DNA of 64,000 nt. It comes from an uncultured Tateyamaria sp. Its GTDB lineage: Bacteria; Pseudomonadota; Alphaproteobacteria; Rhodobacterales; Rhodobacteraceae. Below are positions 15,533-61,546 of this stretch, one piece after another (within the stretch, counting starts at the first letter, position 1; each line of letters opens with the position of its first letter). Both the position numbers and the translations under genes were made by a program. Under the pieces are notes generated by a model that was not told the origin of the DNA, did no database searches, and saw only the letters and a list, made by a program, of their open reading frames with translations. The stretch lies in NCBI RefSeq assembly GCF_947503045.1, contig NZ_CANNCF010000001.1, forward strand, positions 1,054,001-1,118,000, in the 5' to 3' direction.

Positions 15533-15549
15533 TTTTCGAATGCGGCGCG
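15533..15549 (+). promoter_or_regulatory. Third TTTTC-N6-GGCGCG repeat, between AraC-type gene and small peptide
   Basis: TTTTC GAATGC GGCGCG, the same pattern as the pair at 14365-14402. It starts at the AraC gene stop and lies about 60 bp before the small secreted peptide gene, so it could control that gene. Confidence 0.45.
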
Positions 15550-15607
15550 CGGTGCGCCACTTCCATGGGCATCTCTTGGGTATCGATCCAACCACAGGAG
15601 ATGACCC

Positions 15608-15766
15608 ATGCGTGAACTTGCCCTTGCCTTTCTGATTGCCGTCGCCAGCTATGGCCCCGTTCAGGCGATGGGGAACGTGACAATGCCCCCGTCGACCTAT
15701 CCCGCGCCGGACGCCTTTTGCGGCTTTATGCAGCCCTGTTCCGGCAAGGCCGCCCAAAAGCGGTAA
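15608..15766 (+). CDS. Small secreted peptide (52 aa)
   Basis: 52 residues: MRELALAFLIAVASYGPVQA is a convincing Sec signal peptide, leaving a mature peptide of about 32 residues with two cysteines (FCGFMQPCSG) that could form a disulfide. AGGAG at 15596-15600 sits at ideal distance from the ATG. It follows the membrane AraC-type regulator by 75 bp, with a candidate operator between. I do not recognise a family; short exported peptides of this kind occur as signals or envelope components, but the function here is unknown. Confidence 0.65.
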   Translation: MRELALAFLIAVASYGPVQAMGNVTMPPSTYPAPDAFCGFMQPCSGKAAQKR

Positions 15767-15896
15767 CAAGAACGACTTGATGTGACATGTGGTGGGCGGC
15801 GTCGCCCATCACCTTCCCGAATTTCCGCGCAGATGCCCGGACGACTTCGCGGGCGCCCTCACTGCTATTCCCGCAAACAGCGAATTAAGGGATGAT

Positions 15897-15925
15897 ATTG
15901 CAGATCGATACCTGCAATTTCAGGT
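15897..15925. promoter_or_regulatory. Overlapping dyads upstream of the VPLPA-CTERM gene
   Basis: ATTGCAG-N8-CTGCAAT (15897-15918) is a perfect 7-bp-arm inverted repeat, and it overlaps a second one, ACCTG-N6-CAGGT (15910-15925). They lie about 100 bp before the GTG start. A transcription-factor site is likely; the factor is unknown. The rest of the 253-bp gap shows nothing else. Confidence 0.5.
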
Positions 15926-16019
15926 CGATTGGACATTCCCTTTCCAAAATGCGACCTAACTTTGGTCAGGGCGTAAGGGAAACGCGCCCCGGGGGTATTA
16001 ATGGGGAAAGGGAATTTAC

Positions 16020-16868
16020 GTGACACAATTCAATTCAACCTGGCTCGCCACGGCGGGTGCGGCTGCGACTGTGCTGGCCTTTACGGCGATGAGCGCCTCG
16101 GCGGCGTCGGTCACCAGCAATGCGATCTTCGGGTCTGGCAATGCCAATGGCGGGTTCACGATTGACACGGGCATCTATGGCGACCCTGTCGTTCTGGGGA
16201 ATGATCTGCCCGTCGCTGAGCTGGGTTTGCGGGCCAAACTTCGCTTTGACGAGAACAACCAGCCGCAGAACGAATTCAACTACGACGGTGTCGACACCTA
16301 CACGTTTACCGCTGGCTTGCCTCCGTCCGGTTTCGGATTTGCCCCCGGCAGCACGGGCACGGCGACATGGAACTTTGAGTGGAGTATTGGGTCCGACAGC
16401 CAGTTTCCCGGACTTCCGCTGGAGAATGTCACGTCGGTCAACGCGCTGACCTATGAGTTGCGCATTGACGGGGATGCAGGCGCGGGCACTGATTTCCTTG
16501 TTTTTGATCCGATCAACGTGCCCTTTGCGGATCATTCCTTTGGCACGTCTGTGACCGGTGCGGGGGCAGGGGTCGAGGCCGTAGATGGGGCGGATTATGC
16601 CAACCTGATCGCGACAAGTTCGCTGGCCCAGAATTCGTGGAACTACGAATTCTTCAACAATCCCGGCTCGCCGCTGGCGTTTTTTGATGCGCGCAATGCG
16701 GGCAGCTACCGGATCGAGCTTGAGGCCTTTTCGAACGGCGTGAGCATTGCCAGCACGGGGATCAACGTCAATGTCGTGCCTGCCGTGCCGCTGCCTGCTG
16801 GCCTTGGCCTTCTGCTGGGCGGTCTGGGCGTCTTTGGTCTGATGGCACGGCGTCGAAAGACGGCCTGA
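16020..16868 (+). CDS. Secreted VPLPA-CTERM protein
   Basis: 282 residues. Signal peptide at 1-28 (LATAGAAATVLAFTAMSASA), a beta-rich mature domain without a recognised family, then the sorting tail VPAVPLPAGLGLLLGGLGVF followed by GLMARRRK. The VPLPA motif, a membrane helix and a basic end define the VPLPA-CTERM class, a Rhodobacterales variant of PEP-CTERM, processed by an exosortase. The protein should be exported, sorted and released to the surface or matrix. It starts with GTG at 16020 behind a GGGGAAAGGG ribosome site. Own terminator follows at 16896. Confidence 0.85.
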   Translation: MTQFNSTWLATAGAAATVLAFTAMSASAASVTSNAIFGSGNANGGFTIDTGIYGDPVVLGNDLPVAELGLRAKLRFDENNQPQNEFNYDGVDTYTFTAGLPPSGFGFAPGSTGTATWNFEWSIGSDSQFPGLPLENVTSVNALTYELRIDGDAGAGTDFLVFDPINVPFADHSFGTSVTGAGAGVEAVDGADYANLIATSSLAQNSWNYEFFNNPGSPLAFFDARNAGSYRIELEAFSNGVSIASTGINVNVVPAVPLPAGLGLLLGGLGVFGLMARRRKTA

Positions 16869-47100: not shown

Positions 47101-48138
47101 ATGACACCCAAAGTCTCCATTCGCGGTCTTTACAAGATCTTTGGTGCCGACGCCAAATCCCTTGTGCCGCTTGTGCAGGGGGGTATGGACAAGGCCACGC
47201 TCTTGGATCAGCACCGCCACGTGTTGGGCTTGCAGGACATCAATGTCGATATGCAGCCCGGTGAAATCACAGTGATCATGGGCCTGTCGGGTTCGGGCAA
47301 GTCCACGCTGATCCGCCACCTCAACCGGCTGATTGACCCCACTGCGGGCGAAATTCTGGTTGATGGCACGGATGTGATGTCGCTGGACGGCGATGCACTG
47401 CGCCAAATGCGGCAAAAACGCATGTCGATGGTGTTTCAGAAATTCGCGCTGTTGCCGCACAAGACGGTGCTGGAAAACGCCCAACTTCCCCTCAGCGTGC
47501 AGGGCGCCGAGCGAAAGCAGCAGGATGAAGAGGGGCGCAAATGGCTGGCCCGCGTTGGTCTGGATGGGTTCGAGGGACGCTATCCCGCGCAACTGTCCGG
47601 CGGCATGCAGCAGCGGGTGGGTATTGCGCGCGCGCTGACGGCCAATACCGATATCATGCTGATGGACGAGGCGTTCTCGGCCCTTGATCCGCTCATTCGC
47701 ACCGACATGCAGAACCTGCTCTTGGAACTGCAGAAAGAATTGCAAAAGACCATCATCTTTATCACCCATGATCTCGATGAGGCGCTGAAACTCGCCGACC
47801 ACCTCGTGATCCTCAAGGACGGCGCGGTGGTGCAGCAGGGCGAGCCGCAAGGCATCCTGCTCAACCCGGCTGATCCCTACATCGAAGACTTTGTCAGCGA
47901 CATCAACCGCGCCCGCGTGCTGCGGGTGCGGTCGGTCATGCGCCCGCTCAGCCGGGACAGTTTTGACGGGGATGTGGCGGCCAATTCGAACCTCGAGGAT
48001 ATGATCGGCCTCTCGGATGGCGACACAAGCCTGACCTACCGGGTGATGGACGGGGACGAGGCTGTAGGCCAGCTCGATATGAAGGACCTGGTCAAGGCGC
48101 TGGTGCCTCGGGTTTCGGGGCAGGACACCGCTGCCTGA
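47101..48138 (+). CDS. Glycine-betaine-type ABC transporter ATP-binding protein (ProV-like)
   Basis: 345 residues. Walker A GLSGSGKSTLIRH, Q-loop MVFQKFALLPH, signature LSGGMQQRVGIARAL, Walker B DIMLMDEAFSALD and H-loop FITHDLDEA are all intact. The N-terminal insert between KIFGADAKSL and the Walker A is typical of ProV-type ATPases. The C-terminal ~80 residues are a shortened accessory region that could be a degenerate CBS part. It drives the betaine transporter. AGGAGG overlapping the permease stop is the ribosome site. Confidence 0.94.
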   Translation: MTPKVSIRGLYKIFGADAKSLVPLVQGGMDKATLLDQHRHVLGLQDINVDMQPGEITVIMGLSGSGKSTLIRHLNRLIDPTAGEILVDGTDVMSLDGDALRQMRQKRMSMVFQKFALLPHKTVLENAQLPLSVQGAERKQQDEEGRKWLARVGLDGFEGRYPAQLSGGMQQRVGIARALTANTDIMLMDEAFSALDPLIRTDMQNLLLELQKELQKTIIFITHDLDEALKLADHLVILKDGAVVQQGEPQGILLNPADPYIEDFVSDINRARVLRVRSVMRPLSRDSFDGDVAANSNLEDMIGLSDGDTSLTYRVMDGDEAVGQLDMKDLVKALVPRVSGQDTAA

Positions 48139-48269
48139 ACGTGCGCACGCACAAGACGACATTGACGCGCATCCCCTTTCCGGCAACTCTGGGTTGGCGT
48201 AGCAGCATGCCGGGATTTAGCCGGTGACAGCCTGCATGTGCGCCTCATTTGAGACCAAGGAATTGAGAT

Positions 48270-50993
48270 ATGTGCGCTGCCAAGCCCCCGAATGTTCCCA
48301 CCGGTCCTGACGCTGTCGCCGCGCACAAGTTCCTGACCGAAATCCTGACCCGCGTCGCCACGCAACGCCTGCATTTCAGCGAAGGCGATGAAAAGGTCGC
48401 TCTCGACAGCCTTTACGAGCTGTTTGGGCTCGCCCGCAAGACGATCTCGGACAATGTCGGCTGCACCGAGTTCTCAGAGGTGACAGTCGCGTTTTTGAAT
48501 GGCGACTTTCGCGCCTTCATGGCCAAATGGCATCGCAAACGTCTGGCGGGAGAGTTGGACACCCGCGACGGGGCGGTCGAGTTCCGCACTGCCCTGCGCG
48601 GCATTCAGGACGAATTCCGTGCCTTTGCCAAAGTGCTGCACAAGATGGCGCACGGCCCGGACCTGCCCGACTTCCCCCCCGATCGCAATGACAAGGCCTT
48701 TCCAGACGCGCCGCTGGTCTTTGGCATTCCAAAGAACCCAAAGGAAGGGATGGTCCCACAGGAACACGGCGACCGGAATCCCATCCATATCGTGGATCGC
48801 ATCAACGCCTCCGAGGCCGAGGCCATCACCAAACGTCGTGCCCGGTTTACGCCACCCCCTCCCGACGAAGACAAGGGGCCGCTTACAGATGTGGCTGGAT
48901 TGGCGCTCTCGGGGGGCGGAATCCGCTCGGCCAGTTTCAGCCTTGGGGTGGCGCAGGTGTTGGCAAAGCATTCCAAGATCATGAACAGCATCGACCTGAT
49001 GTCGACGGTTAGCGGGGGTGGATTCACCGGCGCGTTCCTCTCGCGCCGTATCGCCGATGGTGGCACAGAAGCTGTGGCCAACCCCGAGGGGCCGGATACA
49101 GAGGCGGTGCGCTATCTGCGCCAGCGGGCCAACTACCTCACCACCGGCAATGCCATGATCACGCTGGGTCTGATGTTCAACCTGCTGGCTGGCATGATCC
49201 TGAACTGGACGGCCCCGGCGGCGCTGATCGCGGTGCTGGTGTCGGTCATGCATCTGCTTGAGGTGTTTGATCTACCGGCCATGGCGCTGGGTCTGCTGGC
49301 GAGTGTGTGCCTCGCCGTGACGGCCACGACGCTGTTGATGGCCCCGTATTCGCTTGGGCGGGTTCGGGATTTCGGCATCTGGTTCTTTTCGCTCAGCGCA
49401 GGCGGGTTGCTGGCCATGCTGCTATTCAAATTCGACTACCAGAATCTGGTTCTGTTCAGCGCGGTGTCAGCCGGTGTCGCCTTTGTGACCTATGCATGGC
49501 TGCCCTACAGTCTGGGCCGATTACGCCTTGGGGCGATGTGGTTCTTTTCTCTGGCCGCTGCGTTCCTGTTGGCGCTGTTCCTCGTGGATCAGGGTTACCA
49601 GTTGTTTGAGACTATGGTCGAGAACGAGTGGGCGGTGACAAGCGCCTCTTTGGCCACGGTTGCGGCGGCCCTTCCGGCCATATCGCGGGTGTTGCCGATG
49701 CTGGGGCAGGCCTGGGTGCGCATGATCGGCAACCGGATCGTGATGACCATCGCCTCCATCGCCGTGCCGTTGCTGGCGCTCATGGCGGGCTATGCGCTGT
49801 ATTACCTCGGGACGAGCACTGAGTTCGGGGTGCCTATGGCCTTTCTGGACGCACAGATCAAACCCGGTTTGACAGTGGTGCTGATCATCGCGGCGGGCCT
49901 TGTCGTGACCGCGCTGGGCGTGATCAACATCAATGCGACGGGACCGCACTGGCTCTATCGCCAGCAACTGGCCAACACCTTTGTGCGGCTGGATCAGAAC
50001 GGATCAACGGATGTGCCTCTGTCCGATCTCGACCCAGAGCAAAAGGCGCCTTACCTGCTGCTCAACGCCGTGGTGAACCTGCCCAACTCCGAACGGATCG
50101 AGATGCGCGAACGACGCGGGGATTTCTTTGTGTTTTCAAAGAATTGGTGCGGCTCTCCGGTGACGGGGTATCGGCCCACCGGCCACTGGCTGCGCTGGCC
50201 CAAGACCAAGCTTGACCTTGCCACGGCCGTGGCCACCTCGGGCGCTGCGGTGGCACCGCATATGGCACTGTTGTCGATGTCTTCGGCGCGCGCGCTTTTG
50301 TCATTCCTCAACATCCGCCTCGGGTTCTGGGTGCGTCGTCCAAGCCTTGACCAGACGGGTCCCGTGGGGACGGGCGGGCGACCTGGGGCGTGGATGCTGC
50401 TGCGCGAAATGCTTGGCTTTGCCATGGATGAAAAGCGAGAGTGGATGATGCTGACGGATGGCGCGCATCTGGAAAACTCGGCCATCTACGAGTTGCTGCG
50501 CCGTCGCTGCAAATTCATCGTGGCCGTCGATGCAAGTGCCGAGAAGGATGGCAGCTTTCGCACCATCCTCACGCTTGTGCGTCATGCGGGCGTCGATTTT
50601 GGCGTGCGCATCCACACCGACCTCAAGGAGTTGCGCGCAGACCCCGAAACCGGGTTGTCGCGTGCCCATGGCGGGCTGTGCGAGATCGACTATCCGGGGG
50701 TCGACGGCCAGCCAGCGGGCAAGGGGCTGCTGCTGATCATGAAACTGTCCATGACCGGCAACGAAAGCGAGTTGGTCAATGCCTACCGCCACGCCAATCC
50801 CGCCTTTCCCAATGTCTCGACCGCCGATCAGTTCTTTGACGAGCACCAGTTCGAGGCCTTTCGCCAGCTGGGCGCGCACGCGGCGCAGTCCATGTTGGAG
50901 CCTGCCCTCGTGGGCGATGGCGGCGAGGTGAGCAGCGTCGCGGACTGGCTCACACGGCTCTATCAGCGCATTCCGCCTGATCTGGATCGGTGA
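48270..50993 (+). CDS. Patatin-like phospholipase with multi-pass membrane insert
   Basis: 907 residues. After a ~200-residue N-terminal part of unknown fold come the patatin landmarks: LALSGGGIRSASFSLGVAQV (oxyanion loop, Gly215-Gly217, and Arg219) and DLMSTVSGGGFTG with the nucleophile Ser248. The dyad Asp lies far away in MLTDGAHLENSAIYELL (Asp730). Between them (about 290-555) are eight or nine hydrophobic segments, so the catalytic fold is split by a membrane domain. Further typical patatin pieces are FFVFSKNWCGSPVTGYRP and LNIRLGFWVRRP. Predicted action: hydrolysis of membrane lipids. The gene runs tail to tail (19 bp) with the STAND operon. AAGGA precedes the ATG. Confidence 0.85.
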   Translation: MCAAKPPNVPTGPDAVAAHKFLTEILTRVATQRLHFSEGDEKVALDSLYELFGLARKTISDNVGCTEFSEVTVAFLNGDFRAFMAKWHRKRLAGELDTRDGAVEFRTALRGIQDEFRAFAKVLHKMAHGPDLPDFPPDRNDKAFPDAPLVFGIPKNPKEGMVPQEHGDRNPIHIVDRINASEAEAITKRRARFTPPPPDEDKGPLTDVAGLALSGGGIRSASFSLGVAQVLAKHSKIMNSIDLMSTVSGGGFTGAFLSRRIADGGTEAVANPEGPDTEAVRYLRQRANYLTTGNAMITLGLMFNLLAGMILNWTAPAALIAVLVSVMHLLEVFDLPAMALGLLASVCLAVTATTLLMAPYSLGRVRDFGIWFFSLSAGGLLAMLLFKFDYQNLVLFSAVSAGVAFVTYAWLPYSLGRLRLGAMWFFSLAAAFLLALFLVDQGYQLFETMVENEWAVTSASLATVAAALPAISRVLPMLGQAWVRMIGNRIVMTIASIAVPLLALMAGYALYYLGTSTEFGVPMAFLDAQIKPGLTVVLIIAAGLVVTALGVININATGPHWLYRQQLANTFVRLDQNGSTDVPLSDLDPEQKAPYLLLNAVVNLPNSERIEMRERRGDFFVFSKNWCGSPVTGYRPTGHWLRWPKTKLDLATAVATSGAAVAPHMALLSMSSARALLSFLNIRLGFWVRRPSLDQTGPVGTGGRPGAWMLLREMLGFAMDEKREWMMLTDGAHLENSAIYELLRRRCKFIVAVDASAEKDGSFRTILTLVRHAGVDFGVRIHTDLKELRADPETGLSRAHGGLCEIDYPGVDGQPAGKGLLLIMKLSMTGNESELVNAYRHANPAFPNVSTADQFFDEHQFEAFRQLGAHAAQSMLEPALVGDGGEVSSVADWLTRLYQRIPPDLDR

Positions 50994-51012
50994 TGGGTGC
51001 GGCAGTGCTGCC

Positions 51013-52908
51013 TTAGTCGTCGTCATTCAACGGGGCTGCGTTCGGCGCCCATTTAAGTTCGACCATGAACACCAGATCGGCAGCCTCCCGGGCCACGCCG
51101 CTGCGGGCGGTCATGTTCAGTGGCATGTAGGTGTTCATCACGTAAGCGATCTTCGTCTGGAAATGAGCGATGATATCGACAAAGTCGACCGTCCGTTTCT
51201 GCATATCCGCAATGAGAATGGTTTCGCCTTTCGCGATCTCCTGTTGAAACAGTTCCGGGTCGCGCCATGGGCGTTCGTCGATTTCTACTCCGTTCACCCA
51301 GATCACCAACTCGGTCACGCGCCCATTGCGCATGGCAGTCACCGACAGGTCCAGTTCGCCCTCGCTGTCAGCAGTCATGACCACCCTGTCGGACCGCTTG
51401 AATTCAAAGAACTCGCTGATGGCCACAGGTCCGGCCGCCTCGACACGATCCGCCAGGAGATAAACTTCGCCCGCCCGTTCTTCGAAAACGCCTGATAGGT
51501 CGCCGGGCATTTCCGGCCGGTAAACCGCGTTCAGAAGATCATCCGCCAGCTCGCGCAATCGGCGTGCGGATGGCCCGTCTTCGATCTCGTCCACGATGTT
51601 CTGGACATCAAGAACCAGTTGGCGGTTCTTGCCATCCGTTTCCAATTGTTCCCTGAGATGGCTCAGGTTCTCGACGACCAGTTTTTCCCATGCCCGCATC
51701 AGCGTACGGGCGGATTCCTTGGCCTTCAGGTCCTCGGGGCTGGCTTGGCGCAAGGCAATCGGTATCGCTTCGCCACGCCCCGGTGGGGACAGACCCGAAC
51801 CGGGCGCAAGGGTCACAATGGCCATGAAGACCACCGCCAACCCGGCTAGCGACATCCACAGCACCTTGTTGTAAAACAGCGAGTGTTTCGTCTCGCCGGT
51901 ATGCCTGACCTGATTGCCGAAACTGCCTTTGTGGATCGCCATGAACAGCGCAATCGGCACCGTGAACAGAAGAAATCCGCTCATGGTTTCGCCGTAGTCA
52001 TACCAGTCCGGCTCGATCGCATCGAATATCCACAGCAGGCAGGAATAGACCAGTATCAACACGCCGAGGGTCACCAGACACAAAAGCAGCGGATAGGCCA
52101 CGCGTTGCCGAATTCGCGTTGCAACGTTGAGCGCGAGGCGCACAAAGAACAGCGGGACGACGACGTAAAGGATCACGGGCCAATAGAATTCACTGTCCAG
52201 TGGTTCACCGACGATCCAGGCAAACAGCGTGACCAAGACAATGGGAATGACCGAGAATTTGACCACCGACATCGCATCCACATAGGCAATCACGCTGCGT
52301 CGGAAGGCCAGCGTGGGCGGGGCAAAGACCGTGGCCAGCGGAACACCGATGAACAACACACAGCCAATGGCCGCAAAAGGCCCGACGATGTAGATGTCCT
52401 CGTCAGGATTGTCGATCAACAGCCAACCCACGAACAAGGTCAGCACAACCGCCATGATCATTGCGATCAGCAATTGTCGGTTCAGTATCCGCGCCATGAA
52501 CCCGAATTCGTTCTTGCGCGAAAACAGCAGTTGGCGGTTGAGTTTGCGTGTGGCGCGCGCCTCCTGCCACCAGTTTCCAAAGCCAGCAAACAGCGAGGTG
52601 TCCGTGCCCTTTGCGACCCGGTCCGCGCTGCGCACCCAGTTCAGGATGTGAGGCTTGCCTTTTTGTGGTGCAAAGCGCTGGGCGAGGGTGGGCTGGACGG
52701 CCTGCAATTGGGCCGGGCTCAGGGTTGTGATCTGGTCCGTCGCACAGGCGTTGACCTGCGGGTCGTCGTCTTGCATCGCAAGATCAAGCAGCAGTTCAGC
52801 CGCCTCCGGCGTGCCATCTGCCACCAGCGCGTCGCACAGGTTGCGCCGCACGGCCGGATCATCGGCGTTCGCGTATTGCTGCATGATGGAAAGGACGTTG
52901 CTGCTCAT
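51013..52908 (-). CDS. HEAT-like/seven-TM protein, third gene of TIR-SIR2/STAND operon
   Basis: 631 residues. The first ~80 residues look like HEAT-repeat helices (DDPAVRRNLCDALVADGTPE, AAELLLDLAMQDDDPQV). Seven membrane segments follow at about 146-165, 172-195, 215-233, 243-261, 272-295, 309-325 and 348-368. The last ~260 residues are soluble, helical first and then strand-rich (YLLADRVEAAGPVAISEFFE, AMRNGRVTELVIWVNGVEID). With a cytoplasmic N-terminus the odd number of segments would put the C-terminal domain outside. No known family. The start overlaps the STAND gene stop (ATGA), so it should act with that NTPase, perhaps as membrane receptor or effector. Confidence 0.75.
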   Translation of the reverse strand: MSSNVLSIMQQYANADDPAVRRNLCDALVADGTPEAAELLLDLAMQDDDPQVNACATDQITTLSPAQLQAVQPTLAQRFAPQKGKPHILNWVRSADRVAKGTDTSLFAGFGNWWQEARATRKLNRQLLFSRKNEFGFMARILNRQLLIAMIMAVVLTLFVGWLLIDNPDEDIYIVGPFAAIGCVLFIGVPLATVFAPPTLAFRRSVIAYVDAMSVVKFSVIPIVLVTLFAWIVGEPLDSEFYWPVILYVVVPLFFVRLALNVATRIRQRVAYPLLLCLVTLGVLILVYSCLLWIFDAIEPDWYDYGETMSGFLLFTVPIALFMAIHKGSFGNQVRHTGETKHSLFYNKVLWMSLAGLAVVFMAIVTLAPGSGLSPPGRGEAIPIALRQASPEDLKAKESARTLMRAWEKLVVENLSHLREQLETDGKNRQLVLDVQNIVDEIEDGPSARRLRELADDLLNAVYRPEMPGDLSGVFEERAGEVYLLADRVEAAGPVAISEFFEFKRSDRVVMTADSEGELDLSVTAMRNGRVTELVIWVNGVEIDERPWRDPELFQQEIAKGETILIADMQKRTVDFVDIIAHFQTKIAYVMNTYMPLNMTARSGVAREAADLVFMVELKWAPNAAPLNDDD

Positions 52909-54899
52909 GCGACATCCTCTTGGTCTTCATCCGTCTTGGAGCCGCGCCGCAAAGTTGCCTGACGGATCGAAAACAGTTTCTGGAACCCTTCGACGGACAG
53001 CCCTTTCTGGATGGCCGCGTGGATCACGAGGTCCACGACTTCGGGGGTCCAGTGGCAGCGATCCGCGTTTTCGAGCAACGCGACCACCGCGTTGCGGGTC
53101 AGGTTCTCGGCCCGTTGGGCAAGGTCAACGTCGGCTTTGTCCCCGCGCGTGGCAAAGGCGTTTGCCACCGACCGCTGGGCAAAGCGGAACAGCTTTTCGG
53201 ATGGATTGACGTGATGCACGATTTCCGACTGCAGCGGATCGATCAGGAATTCATGCGCGATTTCCACAAATTGGCTACCCATGCGGGCCTCTTGACGGAC
53301 AATGCCGCTGGCCTGCATGTCAAGGATCAGAGCGGCCCGCTTGCTTGCATCGCGCAGCGCACCACCAACAAGAGTGCTGTATTCCACCACGTTGCGCTTG
53401 CTGCTTTGGGTCAACAGGTCCGACAGCATGTCGAGGATTTCGAGCTGGTCTGCGCGTTCGAACGTGTCGAGGATTTCCTTGAAATACTCCTGCTGAATCC
53501 GAACCGTGCCACCGGTCTTCTTCATGAAGTCGTCATAGGAAATTTGCGGAATGGACTTGCCCGGGTGGTGCGTCAGCTCGGCCCCGAACAGCTGCCAGAT
53601 CTTGTCACAGACGATCTGGATATGGGCCGGTTCGACAAACCGGTCCTCTTTCTTGAGCGCGTTGATCACTTCGCCATAGATTTCGTCGCCATAACTGTAG
53701 CCAAAGGCCTCGGCGGGGTTCTGGATGGCGGCGCGCGCATCGTTGATGGTGAGATAATCCAGCCGGTAGCGCGAAGTTTGCCGCTTGGACGCAATATCGG
53801 GGACGGCGGCAAGCTGGCCGATATACTCGTCGCGCATCGACAGAACGACCGAGATCGGCAGCACCGTGCCGTGCGGTCCAATCGGTTTCAGCAGGCGGCG
53901 CAGCTCATCAAAGAAACTGGGGCGCAGCCGCCAGTCGGGCTTGTCCTCTTCGGCCACGCCGGGCTGGGCGTCATCGGTATAAAGCGTAAAGATCTGTTCG
54001 AACTGGTCGATGACCAGGCACAGCGCATACCCCGCCTGATGATCCGCCCATTTCTCGCAGAAGTGTTTGAAAAATTGCACGAATCCGAATTCGGGCAGGT
54101 CCAGGATTTCGATCCACTCGCGATGGGCCGCACGGGCGTGGGGCGAGTCCATGAGCGTATGAATCTCGCGCAAGGTGGCGCCTTTCCAAAGGTCGTCCTC
54201 GATGCCTTGGCCGATCTCGTCCAAGGAAAAGAACATGCGGAAATGGCGCCAATAGGCGCGGATATCCATGGTCCCGGCCAGCAGTTTGCAAAAGAAAGGC
54301 GTCGTGCGCCCGCCGCGATGGCGGTATTCGTCGAACGAAAGCTTGCTGACCTCAAAGGCGGCCAGCAGGTTGCGCCGGGCCGGGTTCTCACTTTCGATGG
54401 CGTCAAAACGCTCGAGCACCGCTTCGAGCGGTTGGTCGGCAAGGTCGGGGTCGAATTCCAGCATCGCCGCAATTGCATCGGCCTCGCATTCGGGGGGCGG
54501 GATCAGTTGCAGGATCGAGGCCACGCGCACGGCCTCAAGCGGGTCGCTTTGCGGGGTCAGGCGCACCGTGTGAATGCCGGTTTCCTCGATCCGCGGGATC
54601 ACGCGGGCATTGAGGATCGAGGTTTTCCCGGCCCCTGACTGCGCATGCAGAATGCACAGCTGACCCTTGAGGAACAGCGAGGCCATCTCGCGTTCTTCGC
54701 GCACACGCCCGAAAAACAGCGGTGAATCCTCGAACTGGTAGCTGTCGGTGCCCTTGTAGGGTTCTTCGCCGACTGTGGCGCGGGTGTATTCCAGCTTCAG
54801 TTTCTCGGCCCGTGCGCCATAACCCTCAGGCGGGGCGCGCAAACCATCCAGGCGCCCTCGCTTTGGCGCGCTTGGCGGTGCGGGGGCCTCGGGGTTCAT
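52905..54899 (-). CDS. STAND-type NTPase (nSTAND1-like)
   Basis: 664 residues. Walker A LCILHAQSGAGKTSILNARV (Lys92-Thr93; the first glycine is Ala86), Walker B LCLVIDQFEQIFTLY (Asp298, Glu301), and VVLSMRDEYIGQL (351-363) as the sensor/arginine segment. This is the pattern of the novel STAND NTPases linked to bacterial conflict systems. The C-terminal ~200 residues are a winged-helix and helical region (QYGT-type DYLTINDARAAIQNPAEAFG). No C-terminal repeats typical of ligand-sensing Avs proteins are evident, so sensing may come from the partners. Overlaps both flanking genes (TGATG and ATGA). Confidence 0.88.
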   Translation of the reverse strand: MNPEAPAPPSAPKRGRLDGLRAPPEGYGARAEKLKLEYTRATVGEEPYKGTDSYQFEDSPLFFGRVREEREMASLFLKGQLCILHAQSGAGKTSILNARVIPRIEETGIHTVRLTPQSDPLEAVRVASILQLIPPPECEADAIAAMLEFDPDLADQPLEAVLERFDAIESENPARRNLLAAFEVSKLSFDEYRHRGGRTTPFFCKLLAGTMDIRAYWRHFRMFFSLDEIGQGIEDDLWKGATLREIHTLMDSPHARAAHREWIEILDLPEFGFVQFFKHFCEKWADHQAGYALCLVIDQFEQIFTLYTDDAQPGVAEEDKPDWRLRPSFFDELRRLLKPIGPHGTVLPISVVLSMRDEYIGQLAAVPDIASKRQTSRYRLDYLTINDARAAIQNPAEAFGYSYGDEIYGEVINALKKEDRFVEPAHIQIVCDKIWQLFGAELTHHPGKSIPQISYDDFMKKTGGTVRIQQEYFKEILDTFERADQLEILDMLSDLLTQSSKRNVVEYSTLVGGALRDASKRAALILDMQASGIVRQEARMGSQFVEIAHEFLIDPLQSEIVHHVNPSEKLFRFAQRSVANAFATRGDKADVDLAQRAENLTRNAVVALLENADRCHWTPEVVDLVIHAAIQKGLSVEGFQKLFSIRQATLRRGSKTDEDQEDVA

Positions 54900-56638
54900 C
54901 AGGCTGTCTGCGCCATCGAGGGCGCAGTGCCTTTTGGTTCAAACTCCTTTTCCAACGCCCGTAAAAACGCTTCCTGCCCGGGTTTGACCTCGATGAGGTT
55001 CAGGGTGCTTGCATGGTGTTTGAGGTTGTCGCGCATGGCTTCTTCCATCTGCAAAAGCCAGCCGTCCCGGAACCGCTTGGTCAGCCCCTCGCGCGCGCGC
55101 GGCACCACGTAGCGGTTGATACGCGTGGCGCGGAAGGGCACCCGCCAGACGGCTTCGGCGGCCTGTTGCACTTCGGTCAGCAAAAACGACGTACCAAACA
55201 CCACGGAGGGCGCGATTTTGAGCCGTTCTTCGACCGCGGATGGCACCAAATCCTCGATCCGGGTCAGTTCAAACAGTTGTTCGTTGTTTACGACGCAACT
55301 GTCATCGACATCGATGGAGCCGTGGTATTTGAACAGGATGCAGCCTTCCATGTCGTCAAAACTCAGATCGCGCGCAGTCGAGGGCTGGGTGTAATCGTCC
55401 ACCCCGCCGCGGTAGCCCTGGCGTGTGGAACTGGCATAGCGGTTGGCGTTTTCGGGCAAGGCGTCGGCGAGAAAGTTAAGCGCCTGTTCTTCGGCATCAT
55501 CCCCGTCGCGCGGAAGGATCAGCGGCTGGCTGTCTTCGTCGAACGCATCGCTCAGGATCAGGGTTTCACCCTGAATTTGCGAACGCACGCTTTGGATGAT
55601 CAGACAGTCGGGCAGCTTGACGGTCACCCGCGTGAAGTCCACGCCGTGATACATCATGTGCCATTCGAGGTTGGTGCCAAAGTTCGTGGTAAAGATCATC
55701 GGGGCAGGGGTGCGCCGTCGCCGCGTTGTCTCGGCCGTTTCCAGAAGCAATCTCAGCACTTTGGCCAACTGGTCGTAAAAACCGCTGTTGCGCTTTTGCC
55801 TTGTGTTGAGAATGGTTTTGAGGCGTGACTGCACAAGGCGGGAATCCCCTTTGCCCATGGACAGCCAACTGGCCACCAGTTCCAGCGGCAACACACCGGA
55901 ATCCTCGTCGTCCTGGGGCAAGAAATCGCCTTTTTCCTTGATCAGATGCGCGACCTCCCACGGGCTGGGTTCACCGGATTCCGGCCAGCGCAGGTTCTGC
56001 TCCTGACCAAAATCCTCGCCCGAGGGCGCTTCCATCCCGGTCAGCGGGCCGATCAGAAAGTTCAGCCCGAATTGGCGCACATCGCGGCGCAATTGTTCGG
56101 GGATGCCGTGATAGGGGTCTTCTTCGGTCGCGGCGGCATCATGACGGTTCTGGCGCGATCGGTGTGCGGGTTGTGCAACGGGGCCGCTGCCGTCGCCGGC
56201 ATCACGTGGCGGCAAATTGCGCTCGCCGCGTACCCGGTCCACGACCCGCAGGATTTTCTGGATGGGTACGGTGTCTTCAAGGTGACTGAAGATGATAGGT
56301 GGAAAGCTGCGGAACCGCGCCCCCGGATCGGCAGGCGTGGCACCTGGCAGGATGACGGTGATCAGTGAGAACTTGGAATCAATGGCGAAATTGAACCCCA
56401 TATCCAGTTCAAAATTCTGATATCGCCCGACCCCGGCAGGCCCCCAACAGCCTGCAAACACAAGCGTTTTGTCAAAGGCGGCATCGATTTCCGAACCGGC
56501 AATGCGGTCGTTTTCCATGTCCTGATCGTCAAAGAACACAGAACACCCGGCCTCGGTCAACGCTGTGCAAAGGGCGCGTGCGGCAGGTTTGTCTCTGGAG
56601 TTGTGCGACAGGAATACGTCGTAAAAATCTGCAGTCAT
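54899..56638 (-). CDS. TIR-SIR2 fusion protein
   Basis: 579 residues. TIR domain at about 5-150: YDVFLSHNSRDKPAARALCT, GCSVFFDDQDMENDRIAGSE and GRYQNFELDMGFNFAIDSKF, where Glu77 is in the position of the NADase glutamate (the usual preceding Trp is Tyr73). From about 190 a SIR2-like domain: LNFLIGPLTGMEAPSG in place of the GAG motif, PMIFTTNFGTNLEWHM with Asn319, ILFKYHGSIDVDDSCVVNNE with His439, and a late VVFGTSFLLTEV. So Asn and His of the SIR2 active site remain, while the GAG loop and the Asp after TNF are changed. Two NAD-consuming folds in one chain. First gene of the operon with a promoter/operator upstream. Confidence 0.85.
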   Translation of the reverse strand: MTADFYDVFLSHNSRDKPAARALCTALTEAGCSVFFDDQDMENDRIAGSEIDAAFDKTLVFAGCWGPAGVGRYQNFELDMGFNFAIDSKFSLITVILPGATPADPGARFRSFPPIIFSHLEDTVPIQKILRVVDRVRGERNLPPRDAGDGSGPVAQPAHRSRQNRHDAAATEEDPYHGIPEQLRRDVRQFGLNFLIGPLTGMEAPSGEDFGQEQNLRWPESGEPSPWEVAHLIKEKGDFLPQDDEDSGVLPLELVASWLSMGKGDSRLVQSRLKTILNTRQKRNSGFYDQLAKVLRLLLETAETTRRRRTPAPMIFTTNFGTNLEWHMMYHGVDFTRVTVKLPDCLIIQSVRSQIQGETLILSDAFDEDSQPLILPRDGDDAEEQALNFLADALPENANRYASSTRQGYRGGVDDYTQPSTARDLSFDDMEGCILFKYHGSIDVDDSCVVNNEQLFELTRIEDLVPSAVEERLKIAPSVVFGTSFLLTEVQQAAEAVWRVPFRATRINRYVVPRAREGLTKRFRDGWLLQMEEAMRDNLKHHASTLNLIEVKPGQEAFLRALEKEFEPKGTAPSMAQTA

Positions 56639-56655
56639 TATACTCAGCGGTCCAA

Positions 56656-56696
56656 ATAATATTTCAACCCTAGGCAGAAGGTTAATGCAGATTAAC
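56656..56696 (-). promoter_or_regulatory. Promoter with overlapping operator for the TIR-SIR2 operon
   Basis: On the minus strand TTAACC (56685-56680) and TATTAT (56661-56656) with 18 bp between look like a -35/-10 pair in a locally AT-rich stretch 18 bp before the start codon. GTTAAT-N4-ATTAAC (56681-56696), a perfect 6-bp-arm dyad, covers the -35. This suggests repression by a dimeric regulator. Assigned by eye. Confidence 0.5.
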
Positions 56697-56788
56697 GGAT
56701 TTGCACAGCCCTCAGTGCGGACAGGTGCTGATCAAAAGGCAAAACCGGAGGCCGCATACCGAGCGCGTGCACGAGTGCTGCAGCACCG

Positions 56789-57691
56789 TCAGGGGTTCCA
56801 CGTGGTCGGAATGCCAAGGTTGGGTTTGCGGTTGTTCAGCGCGTCGATATAGGCGTCCATATTGTGGTTGAGCCCACCCCTTGGCGATTTGTGGCGCAGA
56901 ATACTTGTCTGGCCCATCCGGTGAAAACTGCTGGGCAGAAAGCAGACGATATCGTCATCGCGGCAGATCGACAGCGACAACTCTTCCAGCGCAATCGGAC
57001 CGTTGGATTTGCGCGGCCGTGGCGCGGCAAAGCCGATGGCAGGCGTCGCCCAGGTCTTGGACAGGATCTGCGCCGAGGCCGCGCCCAGGGAATGGCCAAT
57101 GATCATCGTTGGCCAGTCGTTGGGGTCATCCCCGATCCAGGTGCGGATCTTGTTGGCGTGCTGAAAGAACCCCTGATGCCAGACCGTGCGCGAAAACCCG
57201 AGCCGCGTGCGGGTGTCCACCTTTTGCCGCTTGGCCTCTTGCCGAAAGGACAGCTTGCGTTTGCCGACGCCCCAAAGCCGCAGGTTAAAGCGCAAATAAT
57301 CGTTCAGTGAATTGCTGCCCGGGATCAGCAGGCAGCGGTTGTTAAGCATATAGGCTTCGACCCCGGGCTTCGTGCAGCGCTTGGTGACGTGCAGCCCGTA
57401 AGTGGTCTTGATCAGCGTATCGCCCGCCGTCGCGTGGCGCGGGTGCAGCTTGTAGGCCGCGGCCGCCATATGTGCGGCGGTCATGACGGACATCGCATGG
57501 GGCCGTCGGTTGCCGAACAGTGCGCGATAGGTCTGGCTGCCCACGACACCGTCCACCACCAACCCGGCGCGCCGTTGAAAGGCCCGCACCGCCGCGTCCG
57601 TCTTGGCCCCCCAGACCCCGTCGATGGGGCCGGGCGTGTAGCCCAGCGTGGTCAGGCGGCGCTGTATGCTTTTCCAGTCTCTGGCTGACAA
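56789..57691 (-). CDS. Peptidoglycan-binding/class 3 lipase protein
   Basis: 300 residues. N-terminal peptidoglycan-binding repeat (about 5-60: SIQRRLTTLGYTPGPIDGVW and AVRAFQRRAGLVVDGVVGSQ), then a class 3 lipase: TMIIGHSLGAASAQIL with the nucleophile Ser, RDDDIVCFLPSSFHRM with the Asp and LNHNMDAYIDAL with the His. All triad residues are present. No signal peptide is visible, so the protein may work in the cytoplasm or be released by another route. TTG start at 57691 behind AGGAG (9 bp); an upstream TTG at 57751 adds only an unconserved stretch. Same strand as the TIR-SIR2 operon with a 150-bp gap. Confidence 0.82.
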   Translation of the reverse strand: MSARDWKSIQRRLTTLGYTPGPIDGVWGAKTDAAVRAFQRRAGLVVDGVVGSQTYRALFGNRRPHAMSVMTAAHMAAAAYKLHPRHATAGDTLIKTTYGLHVTKRCTKPGVEAYMLNNRCLLIPGSNSLNDYLRFNLRLWGVGKRKLSFRQEAKRQKVDTRTRLGFSRTVWHQGFFQHANKIRTWIGDDPNDWPTMIIGHSLGAASAQILSKTWATPAIGFAAPRPRKSNGPIALEELSLSICRDDDIVCFLPSSFHRMGQTSILRHKSPRGGLNHNMDAYIDALNNRKPNLGIPTTWNP

Positions 57692-57844
57692 GGTGCGTGT
57701 CTCCTGCAGGTGGGTCCGGTGAACTCTATGGGCGCTTTCCCCGTCGTGCAACGTATGGTCGTGCTGTCCGAATGCGCCCGGCGCACAGGCCCAAACTGTA
57801 GTTCTGCGCCCCCCACATGTGCGTTAAATCTTGCGTGCCTGTCC

Positions 57845-57886
57845 AAATGTGGTCACTCTGCCGGTGGGGAAATGTGGCCAATCCAC
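57845..57886. promoter_or_regulatory. Direct repeat AAATGTGG(T/C)CA and dyad before the adenylate cyclase
   Basis: AAATGTGGTCA (57845-57855) and AAATGTGGCCA (57870-57880) repeat with a 25-bp period, and the second is part of GTGG-N5-CCAC (57874-57886). They lie in the 215-bp divergent gap, 20-60 bp before the cyclase start. A possible regulator site for both divergent genes. Confidence 0.4.
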
Positions 57887-57906
57887 TTTGGCACCGGGGG
57901 TACATT

Positions 57907-59586
57907 ATGCAACGCAGTCTGGCTGCCGTCCTTGTCGCGGATGTGGCGGGCTATTCCGAGTTGATGGGCGACAATGCCGAGGCCACGCTGAGCGCCCTCA
58001 AACGCCTTCGGACCGAGATTTTTCGCCCCGCTGTCGCCTCGCGCAGTGGCCGTGTGGTCAAAAGCATGGGGGATGGCTGGATCGTGCTGTTTTCCGCAGC
58101 GGCGGATGCGGCGACATGCGCGCTGCAGATACAGGAGTTGCTGGCCACTGACCCGACCCATCATGACCCCAAGATGCTGCTGCGTCTGGGCGTGCATTTG
58201 GGTGATGTGATCGAAGATGAGGAAGACGTGTTCGGCGATGGTGTGAATGTCGCCGCCCGTCTCGAGGAATTTGCCCGCCCTGGCACCATAGCCATATCGG
58301 ATGCGGTGTTTGGCAGCCTTGATGGCACGCTGCGCCCCTCCTTTGACGATGCGGGCGAGCGGCTGCTCAAGAACATCGCCAAGCCCGTGCGCGTGTGGAC
58401 CGGCGGCAGTGCCCCCGACGCCTCTTATGCAGGGGCGGCCAAGGCCGACCGGCCTCACGTGGTCATCCAGCCTGTGCAAACCTCGGACACCCGCACCGAG
58501 GTGATCGAGCTTGCGGACGCCCTTACGGGCGATGTGCTGACCTATCTCGGCGCCACGCACTGGCTGTCGGTGACCAGCGGAGCCAGCCATGATCACGCCT
58601 ATTCCCTGACCTCGCGCCTGCGGGCCAGTGGCGCGCGCTTGCGCCTTGAAGTGCGCCTTGTTGGCCCCATGGGGGCCGAGTTGTGGGCGACCAAGATCGA
58701 CGGCGATATGGAAGATGCCTTTGACTGGCAGGACAGCACGGGCGAAACCCTTGTCTCGCATGTGCTGGCGGCCGTGTTCGATGCTGAGCGGCGTGTGCTC
58801 GACAAGCTGAGCCTGCCCGAGATGAGCGCCAATCAGTGCGAATTGCGCGGCCAACTGGCGCTCGATCATCTGGACCCCGAGGCCTTTGCCGCAGCACTCA
58901 CCTATTCCAGTGCAGCCATCGAAAAAGATCCCGCATCTGCGCCTGCACTGGCGCTCGCGTTGGTGTCCTACCTGTCGGCGGCTGTGATGGGCTTTGACAG
59001 CGTCACCGCCCCATATGCCCGTTCGATCCCGAAATGGTGTGCGGCTGCGGCACCGCTGGCCCCTGATCACGCACATCTGCATCTTGCCCTTGGCGTTACC
59101 GCTTATGCCGAGGCGCGCGACCCGGTCACCTTGCGCAAGATCATCGACAAGGCCCTGCGCCAATCCTCATCCGACTATGTGACGCTGGTGCTGAGCGGTT
59201 GGGCCTATGTCTGGATCGGCGATCACCGCGCGGCCGTCGACTGCCTGTCCAAGGCCTGGACCTTTGGCCGTCAAAGCCCGTGGTCGCTGGCGATCAAGGG
59301 CGGGCTTGCCTTTGCCTCGCTGCAGACGGGCGATGATGCAGGCGCGATTGCCCATGCCCGCGAGGGGCTGGAGACAAGCGCGGACTACGCGACGCTGCAC
59401 CGGGTGTTGGCGGCGGCCCATGCCCATCAGGGCGAGGAAGAGGCCGCACAGGCCGCACTGGCCGCAGCCTTGGCCGCCGACCCGCAGGATTCCATCCGCG
59501 CGATCCGGGCGCGCAACCTTTTTGCCGATTATGACAGCGGCAATCGCTATCTGGACGGGCTGCGCTTGGCGGGAATGCCGGAATAG
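57907..59586 (+). CDS. Class III adenylate cyclase with TPR-like C-terminus
   Basis: 559 residues. N-terminal cyclase catalytic domain (about 5-165): VLVADVAGYSELM with metal Asp12, VVKSMGDGWIVLF with Lys52 and metal Asp56, and EDVFGDGVNVAARLEEFA with Asp107, Asn114 and Arg118. All residues for metal, adenine recognition and the transition state are in place, so cAMP production is likely. The rest, to the end, is helical with tetratricopeptide-like repeats (VDCLSKAWTFGRQSPWSLAI, ALAAALAADPQDSIRAIRAR). This architecture is common in rhizobia and roseobacters. Divergent from the lipase gene, so it shares an intergenic control region with the possible conflict cluster. Confidence 0.88.
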   Translation: MQRSLAAVLVADVAGYSELMGDNAEATLSALKRLRTEIFRPAVASRSGRVVKSMGDGWIVLFSAAADAATCALQIQELLATDPTHHDPKMLLRLGVHLGDVIEDEEDVFGDGVNVAARLEEFARPGTIAISDAVFGSLDGTLRPSFDDAGERLLKNIAKPVRVWTGGSAPDASYAGAAKADRPHVVIQPVQTSDTRTEVIELADALTGDVLTYLGATHWLSVTSGASHDHAYSLTSRLRASGARLRLEVRLVGPMGAELWATKIDGDMEDAFDWQDSTGETLVSHVLAAVFDAERRVLDKLSLPEMSANQCELRGQLALDHLDPEAFAAALTYSSAAIEKDPASAPALALALVSYLSAAVMGFDSVTAPYARSIPKWCAAAAPLAPDHAHLHLALGVTAYAEARDPVTLRKIIDKALRQSSSDYVTLVLSGWAYVWIGDHRAAVDCLSKAWTFGRQSPWSLAIKGGLAFASLQTGDDAGAIAHAREGLETSADYATLHRVLAAAHAHQGEEEAAQAALAAALAADPQDSIRAIRARNLFADYDSGNRYLDGLRLAGMPE

Positions 59587-59590
59587 AGCG

Positions 59591-61321
59591 CTAGTGGATG
59601 TCGGGTTCCGGCACCGGCGCGCCGAACCCGGTTTCGAGATAGTCGAAATCACAGCCCTTGTCGGCCTGCTGGATATGACGCGCAAACATCCAGCCATATC
59701 CGCGCTGATAGCGTGGGGCAGGGGCGGTCCAGGCGGCGCGGCGTTCGTCCAGTTCCGTATCGCTCAGTTGCACGTTCAGGGTCCGGTTGGGCACATCCAG
59801 TTCGATGATGTCCCCCGTCTTGATCAGCGCCAGCGGCCCGCCGATGAATGCCTCGGGTGCGACATGCAGGATGCAGGCCCCGAAGGACGTGCCTGACATC
59901 CGCGCATCCGACAGGCGCACCATGTCGCGCAGACCCAGTTTCAGCAGGGCCTTGGGCATCGGGATCATGCCCCATTCGGGCATGCCCGGCCCGCCCTGAG
60001 GTCCTGCATTCCTCAGCACCAGCACGCTGTCGGGGGTCATGGGATAGTCTTCGTCGTTGATGATCTCCTTAAGCGCCTCATAGCTGTCAGCCACGATGGC
60101 GGGCCCTGTGTGCGTCTGGAATTTGGGGTCCATGGCGGCGGGTTTGATCACCGCCCCGTCGGGCGCAAGATTGCCGCGCAGCACGGCGAGCGATCCTTCG
60201 GCGTAGACCGGGTTGGTGAGGGGTCGGATGACGTCAATGTTGAAGTTTTTTGCGTGCGCAATGTCCTCGCCCAGCGTCTTGCCGGTCACGGTTGTGACGG
60301 ACAAATCAAGCTTGTCCCCCAGCTCCTGCATCAAGGCAGGCAAGCCGCCTGCATAGAAAAAGTCCTCCATCAGGTATTCGGTGCCTGAGGGGCGGATATT
60401 GGCGATGACGGGCGTGGTGCGCCCCACCGCGTCGATATCATCAAGACCCAGCGGCACACCGGCACGCCGTGCCATTGCGATGAGGTGAATGATCGCGTTG
60501 GTCGAACAGCCTGTGGCCATGGCAACGGTGACCGCGTTGCGGGTGGCGGCTTGGGTGATGATCTTGTTTGGCGTCAGATCCTCCCAGACCATGTCGACGA
60601 TGCGTCGCCCGCAGGCCGCGGCCATGCGCTTGTGCCCTGCATCCGGGGCCGGGATCGACGAGGCCCCGGGCAGGGTCAGCCCGAACCCTTCGGCAATCGA
60701 CATCATGGTCGAGGCGGTGCCCATGGTCATGCAGGTGCCGTAGGAACGCGCGATACCGCCCTGTACACCCTCCCATTCCGCCGCGCCAATGTTGCCTGCA
60801 CGCCGCTCGTCCCAGTATTTCCACACATCCGTGCCCGAGCCGAGCTTTTGCCCCGCGTAGTTTCCCCTTAGCATCGCGCCCGCAGGCATGAAGATCATCG
60901 GCAGCCCCATGGACACCGCGCCCATGACCAGCGCCGGAGTGGATTTGTCACACCCCCCCATCAGCACCACGCCGTCGACGGGATGGCTGCGCAGGGTCTC
61001 TTCGACCTCGATGGCACCGAGATTGCGGTAGAGCATCGAAGTTGGTTTCAGGAACTGTTCGGCAAAGTCGTGCACGGGCAGCTCGGCAGGCGTGCCCCCA
61101 GCCTGCAGGATGCCGCGTTTCACCCATTCGGCGCGGTCGCGCAGGTGGTGATGGCAGGGGGACAGGTCCGACCACGTGTTGATGATGGCGATGACCGGCT
61201 TGCCGTTCCAATCTTCGCCGGTCCAGCCCATCTGGGCCGCGCGGCTGCGATGGCCCATGGAACGCAGATCATCCGGGGCGAACCAACGGGCGGAACGCAG
61301 GTCTTTGGCATCTTTGGGCAT
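59591..61321 (-). CDS. IlvD/Edd-family dehydratase, sugar-acid (L-arabinonate) type
   Basis: 576 residues. Iron-sulfur cysteines are in INTWSDLSPCHHHL (Cys56), VVLMGGCDKSTPALVMG and SYGTCMTMGTASTMMS. ATGCSTNAIIHLIAMARR and MSGTSFGACILHVAPEA are family landmarks. The length and cysteine placement suit sugar-acid dehydratases such as L-arabinonate dehydratase (with [2Fe-2S]) better than valine/isoleucine dihydroxyacid dehydratase. Probably removes water from a pentonate or hexonate to give a 2-keto-3-deoxy acid. ATG 61321 gives family length. Convergent with the adenylate cyclase (4 bp between stops). Confidence 0.88.
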   Translation of the reverse strand: MPKDAKDLRSARWFAPDDLRSMGHRSRAAQMGWTGEDWNGKPVIAIINTWSDLSPCHHHLRDRAEWVKRGILQAGGTPAELPVHDFAEQFLKPTSMLYRNLGAIEVEETLRSHPVDGVVLMGGCDKSTPALVMGAVSMGLPMIFMPAGAMLRGNYAGQKLGSGTDVWKYWDERRAGNIGAAEWEGVQGGIARSYGTCMTMGTASTMMSIAEGFGLTLPGASSIPAPDAGHKRMAAACGRRIVDMVWEDLTPNKIITQAATRNAVTVAMATGCSTNAIIHLIAMARRAGVPLGLDDIDAVGRTTPVIANIRPSGTEYLMEDFFYAGGLPALMQELGDKLDLSVTTVTGKTLGEDIAHAKNFNIDVIRPLTNPVYAEGSLAVLRGNLAPDGAVIKPAAMDPKFQTHTGPAIVADSYEALKEIINDEDYPMTPDSVLVLRNAGPQGGPGMPEWGMIPMPKALLKLGLRDMVRLSDARMSGTSFGACILHVAPEAFIGGPLALIKTGDIIELDVPNRTLNVQLSDTELDERRAAWTAPAPRYQRGYGWMFARHIQQADKGCDFDYLETGFGAPVPEPDIH

Positions 61322-61546
61322 GGGCGTACGGGTCCGTTTCTTATTCTGGGCACAGGGCCTGCGCCTCAGGCTAGCACCTTGCCCGCAGCCTTGCCACAGC
61401 GCTGCAACCACCTGCTCAAGACAGGGGCACCTGAGGTTGTTCAGCTTACTTGCTGCTATTGAGCGGCGGGCTGATCCAATTGATTTATTGCAATATTTGA
61501 TCCGTGCTGTACCACTTTGGGCTGTATACTGCTTCTGGGGGAAGAA

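Follow-up and report, generated by a model that had tools for sequence, protein, structure and literature searches.

A candidate three-gene conflict operon encoding TIR-SIR2, nSTAND1 and HEAT/seven-transmembrane proteins in an uncultured Tateyamaria

We analyzed a stretch of 64,000 nucleotides from an uncultured Tateyamaria sp. (contig NZ_CANNCF010000001.1; hereafter, the window) that contains three adjacent minus-strand genes for a TIR-SIR2 fusion protein, an nSTAND1 nucleoside triphosphatase (NTPase), and a protein with HEAT repeats and seven hydrophobic segments. An earlier note on this DNA had placed these genes among six open reading frames (ORFs) at 48270..59586, and all six are present at those positions. 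The first gene of the operon encodes the TIR-SIR2 fusion (P0004, 579 aa; 54899..56638), the second the NTPase, which carries no fused effector (P0003, 664 aa; 52905..54899), and the third the HEAT/seven-transmembrane (HEAT-TM) protein, which also has a C-terminal part (P0002, 631 aa; 51013..52908). The 1-4 bp overlaps described for them are likewise there: TIR-SIR2 and nSTAND1 share 1 bp (TGATG), and nSTAND1 and HEAT-TM share 4 bp (ATGA). The 150 bp that precede TIR-SIR2 (56639..56788, minus strand) hold a possible promoter, TTAACC-18-TATTAT at 56685-56656, which is a weak candidate because three promoter-like sites occur in 48000-57900 versus a mean of 2.3 in shuffled sequences. Domain assignments come from a Pfam scan of nine genes (46.06-61.62 kb) and a comparison of six genes (48.27-59.59 kb) with PADLOC protein models.

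The strongest evidence that these genes belong together is their recurrence elsewhere. We scanned genome contigs from 84,980 species for relatives of P0004 using six short peptide patterns, a method that misses remote relatives. The scan matched 15 stretches, one of which encodes a relative: locus L034, in the distantly related Alphaproteobacteria metagenome-assembled genome (MAG) KW1-S21_141. Its genes follow the order of the window, with TIR-SIR2, nSTAND1, and then the start of a HEAT-TM gene. The TIR-SIR2 relative is full length at 37% identity, the nSTAND1 relative shows 45% identity across residues 27-654, and the HEAT-TM relative shows 26% across 155 residues (5-159; E 5e-8). By ORF coordinates, the first two genes are separated by a 9-bp gap and the next two overlap by 17 bp. 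The recurrence of the same genes in the same order upholds the proposal of a coupled trio, and we conclude that TIR-SIR2, nSTAND1, and HEAT-TM form a conserved unit. G860 (also listed as G853) is most likely the genome of this MAG, whose order is represented by one genome in the searched set. Upstream of the trio, L034 has an ORF that is ubiG-like by eye and not a patatin, and a search of G860 for the patatin that neighbors the operon in the window gave no match at E <= 1e-20 (93% complete, 810 contigs; two of eight first-look candidates scored). Because this genome has the trio and no patatin match, the three genes appear to travel together without requiring the patatin, which is probably not obligatory for the unit.

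The unit is rare. Full-length TIR-SIR2 was found in 1 of 295 genomes of the family and 1 of 398 of the phylum, in both cases the source genome, with one and four further genomes, respectively, matching in the TIR part only. HEAT-TM was likewise confined to the source genome among 244 genomes of the order. For nSTAND, five of 248 family genomes matched, four of them in no more than a short region around residues 42-122; a two-row nSTAND profile matched 18 of 357 class genomes, with full-length matches only in the source genome and G860. Plasmids yielded TIR-SIR2 matches in the TIR part only, partial nSTAND matches, and none for HEAT-TM. Viral contigs contained no relatives for the queries P0004, P0002, A2, and A1, and a phage search with HEAT-TM, the one query used, found no relative.

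By eye, the TIR domain of P0004 spans about residues 5-125 and the SIR2-like domain about 185-565. Two Pfam families were listed for the protein at E <= 1: TIR_2 (39.5 bits, cut-off 28; E 9.4e-10) and SIR2_2, which at 18.4 bits falls under its cut-off of 24.5 (E 0.0024); in the L034 relative, SIR2_2 reaches 29.6 bits, above the cut-off. PADLOC matches were mainly to models of the TIR part (best PDC-S66, E 2.3e-6, residues 5-52), with weak matches to two SIR2 models (E 0.014 and 0.017) and to ThsB models (best E 0.0031). A search of solved structures returned three TIR entries for query A2 and nothing useful for P0002 and A1. Glu77 of the TIR domain (NFELD), the putative catalytic glutamate, is conserved in L034. 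The SIR2 part carries GPLTG (197), TTNFG (317; NFG 319-321), and YHGSID (438; HG 439-440) in the window, and GPFTG, TTNFG, and YHGSID in L034. Around the SIR2 His, 20 of 20 residues are identical between the two proteins (LSFDDMEGCILFKYHGSIDV), at an overall identity of 37-39%; this implies that the pocket is under selection, whatever its role.

P0003 is a clear member of nSTAND1 (112.2 bits, cut-off 27.1), and its Walker A (88-94) and Walker B-like (296-304) motifs are conserved with L034. No TPR, WD40, HEAT, or FGE was present among the six Pfam families listed for it at E <= 1, and its single PADLOC match at that threshold was PtuA, weak and partial (0.034). No sensor repeats were recognised on the NTPase, and HEAT repeats lie on the third protein of the operon. 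The prospective effector is coupled to the NTPase as a separate gene, the TIR-SIR2 frame lying directly upstream with its 1-bp overlap in an order shared with L034. In P0002, HEAT_2 scores 27.6 bits, just below the cut-off of 27.7, as HEAT repeats likewise do in the L034 relative; the seven hydrophobic stretches occupy residues 137-375 by hydropathy, and the PADLOC match was weak and partial (E 0.00076).

The operon sits in a segment of about 8.7 kb (48120..56785) between an ABC transporter on the left and a gene for a peptidoglycan-binding (PGB) lipase-like protein on the right. We define this segment by composite inference, its left edge coming from five congeners and its right edge from a sixth genome of the genus, G240, with no single congener showing both flanks around an empty site. 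The DNA of G240 aligns piecewise with 29.8-44.7 kb of the window and, after 132 bp, again from 56,786 onward; at this place it has the lipase (68%) and the cyclase beyond it (about 83-84%), and lacks the patatin, the operon, and the transporter. None of the three operon proteins has a match in G240. The five other congeners, examined out of 12 others with the transporter, are syntenic with the window as far as 47.97-48.12 kb, a stretch that includes the transporter, after which synteny breaks. Absence from G240 had suggested that the transporter was itself part of the island; this was rejected, since in those five it is syntenic although the segment is absent. The interval of about 48.12-56.79 kb thus appears to be a lineage-specific segment that contains the patatin gene along with the operon, with loss in the other genomes being possible. 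A DNA search of plasmids with a 16-kb stretch gave no match to the segment among the 20 of 26 records listed.

Among the five congeners, the region beyond the transporter differs: loci L104 and L105 share one ORF, and L107 and L108 share others. Ten post-transporter ORFs from four congeners comprised by Pfam one C5-methylase (L105), an ABC ATPase, a FecCD permease, a LysR regulator, two PUCC proteins, and four without a match at 1e-5. In L105, the C5 cytosine DNA methylase gene (15000-16166) lies about 4.7 kb downstream of the transporter.

The remaining gene of the segment encodes a split patatin (P0001, 907 aa; 48270..50993, plus strand), convergent with the operon and separated from it by 19 bp. 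It consists of an N-terminal domain, a half with GGGIRS and Ser248, a membrane insert, and a half with Asp730. The earlier label of “split patatin” is apt, in that a hydrophobic insert at about 293-558 separates the Ser248 and Asp730 motifs; the match to PF01734 is just over the cut-off (27.9 versus 27.7 bits). The protein occurs in 1 of 20 genus genomes, its own, and matches were found in 9 of 381 class genomes and, by tblastn, in 40 plasmid records, 30 of which were listed. We examined 12 of the 40 plasmid records and all eight other-genome loci from the class search. Among the listed records, the N-terminal domain was also matched in three: Rhizobium beringeri (L064), Mesorhizobium (L060), and Sinorhizobium chiapasense (L061). 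The window patatin groups with these three proteins (support 100/99) on a long branch, with a best identity of 33%, and all four aligned proteins share Ser248 and Asp730.

All three of these relatives lie among several TIR genes, which by Pfam include a ThsB-type TIR in L060 and L064. With a TIR profile of seven sequences (including the TIR domains of the window and L034, and none from the patatin plasmid loci), ORFs at E < 0.01 were found in 3/3 clade loci versus 0/17 other split-patatin loci, where the best E was 0.1; the clade was chosen after two of its loci had been seen. The 17 comparison loci are L062, L065-L072, and L084-L091 (L063 does not contain a patatin). The flanking DNA extended over 6 kb in L060-L062 and roughly 8 kb elsewhere, with L085 and L089 lying on short contigs. 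Among the 49 neighbors of eight other split patatins, no TIR appeared in the 25 of 41 Pfam families listed. The TIR-linked split patatins might represent a membrane-attacking branch of TIR signaling. The patatin of the window may be linked to the operon, given the shared lineage-specific segment and its TIR-associated clade. Each of the three rhizobial plasmid loci (L064 2072-18494, L060 57-9294, L061 1-11494) also has a gene of DNA-base metabolism: a 5-hydroxymethyldeoxyuridine (5-hmdU) DNA kinase helical domain protein in L064, which in addition encodes a SLOG protein, a uracil-DNA glycosylase in L060, and a thymidylate synthase in L061.

To the right of the segment lie the PGB-lipase-like gene (56789..57751, minus strand), which shares the strand of TIR-SIR2 and stops 150 bp short of it, and a class III cyclase with TPR (P0006; 57817..59586, plus strand). 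The former matches PG_binding_1 at 72.3 bits and Lipase_3 at 15.3 against a cut-off of 22, and the latter matches Guanylate_cyc at 46.2 bits and PycC models of PADLOC (one at E 1.6e-9); lipase and patatin match no PADLOC model. The earlier note had counted lipase and cyclase as members of the system, which is not supported: both are syntenic in G240 (68% and 83%), which has no operon. Membership is ruled out as far as this one genome allows, and the two are probably bystanders outside the system. The same note had named presence in all related genomes, regardless of the operon, as the mark of coincidental neighbors; one genome, G240, bears this out. Cyclase matches occur in 20 of 20 genus genomes, with a close relative (about 83-84%) only in G240 among 19 congeners and the next at 43, 39, and 39%, so the lipase-cyclase pair is not a genus-wide core. 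In five congeners, the ORFs of the roughly 7 kb that follow the transporter matched neither protein, the lipase having been searched in these and G240. Judged by sequence comparison, the window and G240 have the pair in common, and in G240 it occurs independently of the operon. The source genome contains 16 cyclase matches including P0006 itself, of which 13 cover the cyclase domain and three are limited to the TPR part, and four cyclase-domain matches stand side by side at G000:C3:363042-366495. Beyond the cyclase, the listed start of a dehydratase ORF (59591-61621) is probably too early, as similarity to G240 begins at residue 96.

From the observed gene set, its order, the conservation of motifs, the patchy distribution, and the island, we infer a scheme of sensing, assembly, NAD+ cleavage, and membrane action. 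Our favored interpretation, in which we place about even confidence, is that the trio is a rare, horizontally spread conflict operon of a STAND-gated, NAD-targeting abortive-infection type with a membrane partner. Its target would most likely be a phage or plasmid, an anti-phage purpose being presumed from the gene content. The NTPase, whose Walker motifs are observed, would act as an ATP-driven switch; it would sense the invader either alone or via the HEAT repeats of the membrane partner, and would then assemble and activate the separately encoded TIR-SIR2 protein. The TIR domain, with its conserved Glu77, would cleave NAD+, leading to NAD+ depletion or an ADP-ribose-type signal, and the SIR2 domain could be either a second NADase with an altered pocket or a site binding the TIR product. 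The HEAT/seven-transmembrane protein would locate the complex at the membrane and possibly do membrane damage itself. For the split patatin, the most that this scheme allows is an accessory role in lipid cleavage within the island, outside the core. Gating of NAD use by the STAND protein, as originally proposed, is a plausible hypothesis.

Several observations weigh against this interpretation. The full operon has one relative only, and the HEAT gene of that relative stops at a contig end, leaving the later transmembrane segments and the C-terminal part of P0002 with no counterpart in the comparison. AlphaFold models from two-row alignments were poor (mean predicted local distance difference test scores of 46.8 and 36.8). 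No additional defense gene was recognised nearby (PADLOC on six genes, Pfam on nine), the four genes that the segment carries include no integrase, and its composition is ordinary, like that of its neighbors (GC 0.585-0.619). The SIR2 pocket is also unusual: GAGxS is a sirtuin-type NADase motif, and in both relatives the pocket lacks this motif and the Asp of NxD, with the Asn and His/HG retained. With both missing, NADase activity of the SIR2 part is doubtful and a receptor role is possible. According to published work, Asn112 and His152 matter in ThsA (PMC7272460), as do N110 and D112 in Avs5, where D112A abolished defense (PMC12931631). The same account of Avs5 describes HG as often swapped for NG with activity kept (PMC12931631), so departures from the SIR2 motifs need not mean inactivity.

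Of the other explanations, the one that survives best is that patatin and operon reached a variable site independently and do not work together, which is compatible with the three-gene conflict reading and which we consider a serious contender somewhat short of an even chance. The content after the transporter varies in the five congeners, one of which has the C5-methylase gene within 6 kb, and G860 has the operon genes and no patatin match; on the other hand, the TIR association of the patatin clade would then be a coincidence here.

A four-gene system would instead make the patatin a true effector, gated either by a nucleotide from TIR activity or by the STAND complex and killing through cleavage of membrane lipids. 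Patatin and operon are the sole large genes of the lineage-specific segment, and the other three examined patatins of the clade, with their invariant catalytic residues, lie among TIR genes. However, the patatin is convergent and not co-transcribed with the operon, it has no match at E <= 1e-20 in G860 (two of eight first-look candidates scored), and the three TIR loci gave no blastp match (E <= 1e-4) to STAND, TIR-SIR2, or the HEAT protein, a weak test in that their own TIR genes were missed as well. We regard this explanation as unlikely. That the operon serves stress or housekeeping signaling rather than defense, with the STAND and HEAT-TM proteins sensing envelope or osmotic stress while TIR-SIR2 tunes NAD pools, is improbable: the contig is of chromosome size (1.68 Mb) and ordinary composition, and the segment adjoins a glycine-betaine-type ABC transporter and contains no recognised mobile gene, but the operon is rare and patchy, the patatin occurs in one of 20 genus genomes, the operon proteins are unmatched in G240, and the transporter is present without the segment in five congeners.

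A more speculative extension of the three-gene conflict reading, to which we assign a small chance, is that TIR-SIR2 might be a self-contained enzyme and receptor, a TIR-made ADP-ribose signal being bound in cis by the remodeled SIR2 pocket under STAND control. The split membrane patatins of the clade could also be new lipase effectors gated by TIR signals, a branch resembling Thoeris but directed at membranes in place of NAD+. If the conflict reading is true, a STAND switch governs an effector that unites both NAD-handling folds of bacterial immunity, together with a dedicated membrane partner. TIR-SIR2 would offer a natural case for deciding between enzyme and receptor roles of a defense SIR2 domain that lacks the canonical motifs, and a membrane-attacking branch of TIR signaling would be testable with few genes.

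The earlier note had also stated that no relative known to it has this gene set. In agreement, no PADLOC or NCBIfam protein model fits the trio closely, and NCBIfam gave no match at cut-off; the PADLOC comparison covers protein models rather than whole-system rules. In the literature searched, which included few subscription journals, no description of the gene set was found under the wordings used, and the strings TIR-SIR2 and SIR2-TIR returned no paper.

Among systems with similar neighbors, the cyclic oligonucleotide-based antiphage signaling system (CBASS) is defined by a nucleotidyltransferase (CD-NTase) adjoining an effector, and the pyrimidine cyclase system for antiphage resistance (Pycsar) by a class III-type cyclase paired with an effector. 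No CD-NTase was found among the Pfam families of the four genes of the segment. The window patatin resembles the CapV patatins of CBASS and other split patatins as a patatin hydrolase in a possible conflict setting, and differs from CapV in that its catalytic domain is split by a membrane insert. Despite its PycC match, P0006 is unlike Pycsar in that it sits at the equivalent place in G240 without the operon. Closer to the operon, plasmid pB of Ensifer adhaerens (L063 4370-9372) has an nSTAND1 gene immediately preceded by a SIR2_2 gene, like the pairing in the window; the NTPase is similar to P0003 (E 7e-15) but has a beta-propeller-like C-terminus, and no TIR or HEAT-TM gene was seen there.

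Avs proteins join effector, STAND, and repeat sensor in a single chain, the sensor of Avs5 being C-terminal. Avs5 (AVAST type 5) likewise has a STAND NTPase controlling a SIR2 effector, whose domain hydrolyzes NAD+, but there SIR2 and STAND form one chain, whereas the window has three chains plus TIR (PMC12931631). Thoeris also combines TIR and SIR2 in one system, and ThsA Asn112/His152 likely correspond to Asn319/His439 of P0004; the window differs in having TIR and SIR2 in one chain without a separate ThsB, in adding STAND and HEAT-TM, and in missing GAGxS and the NxD Asp (PMC7272460). No ThsA-type SLOG or Macro sensor was among the Pfam families for P0004 at E <= 1. Thoeris is further characterized by a TIR product that triggers the cleavage of NAD+ by SIR2. 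Published work on counter-invader systems lists nSTAND1 among their central NTPases and, in a separate statement, TIR and SIR2 as exchangeable effectors (PMC8195603). The window shares with those systems a central nSTAND1 switch and TIR and SIR2 effectors, and departs from them in its separate TIR-SIR2 fusion, its HEAT/seven-transmembrane third partner, and a STAND protein without recognised sensor repeats (PMC8195603). Systems that pair an nSTAND1 switch with effectors of TIR or SIR2 type are known, and what appears to be new here is the fused effector, the unfused STAND protein, and the HEAT/seven-transmembrane partner.

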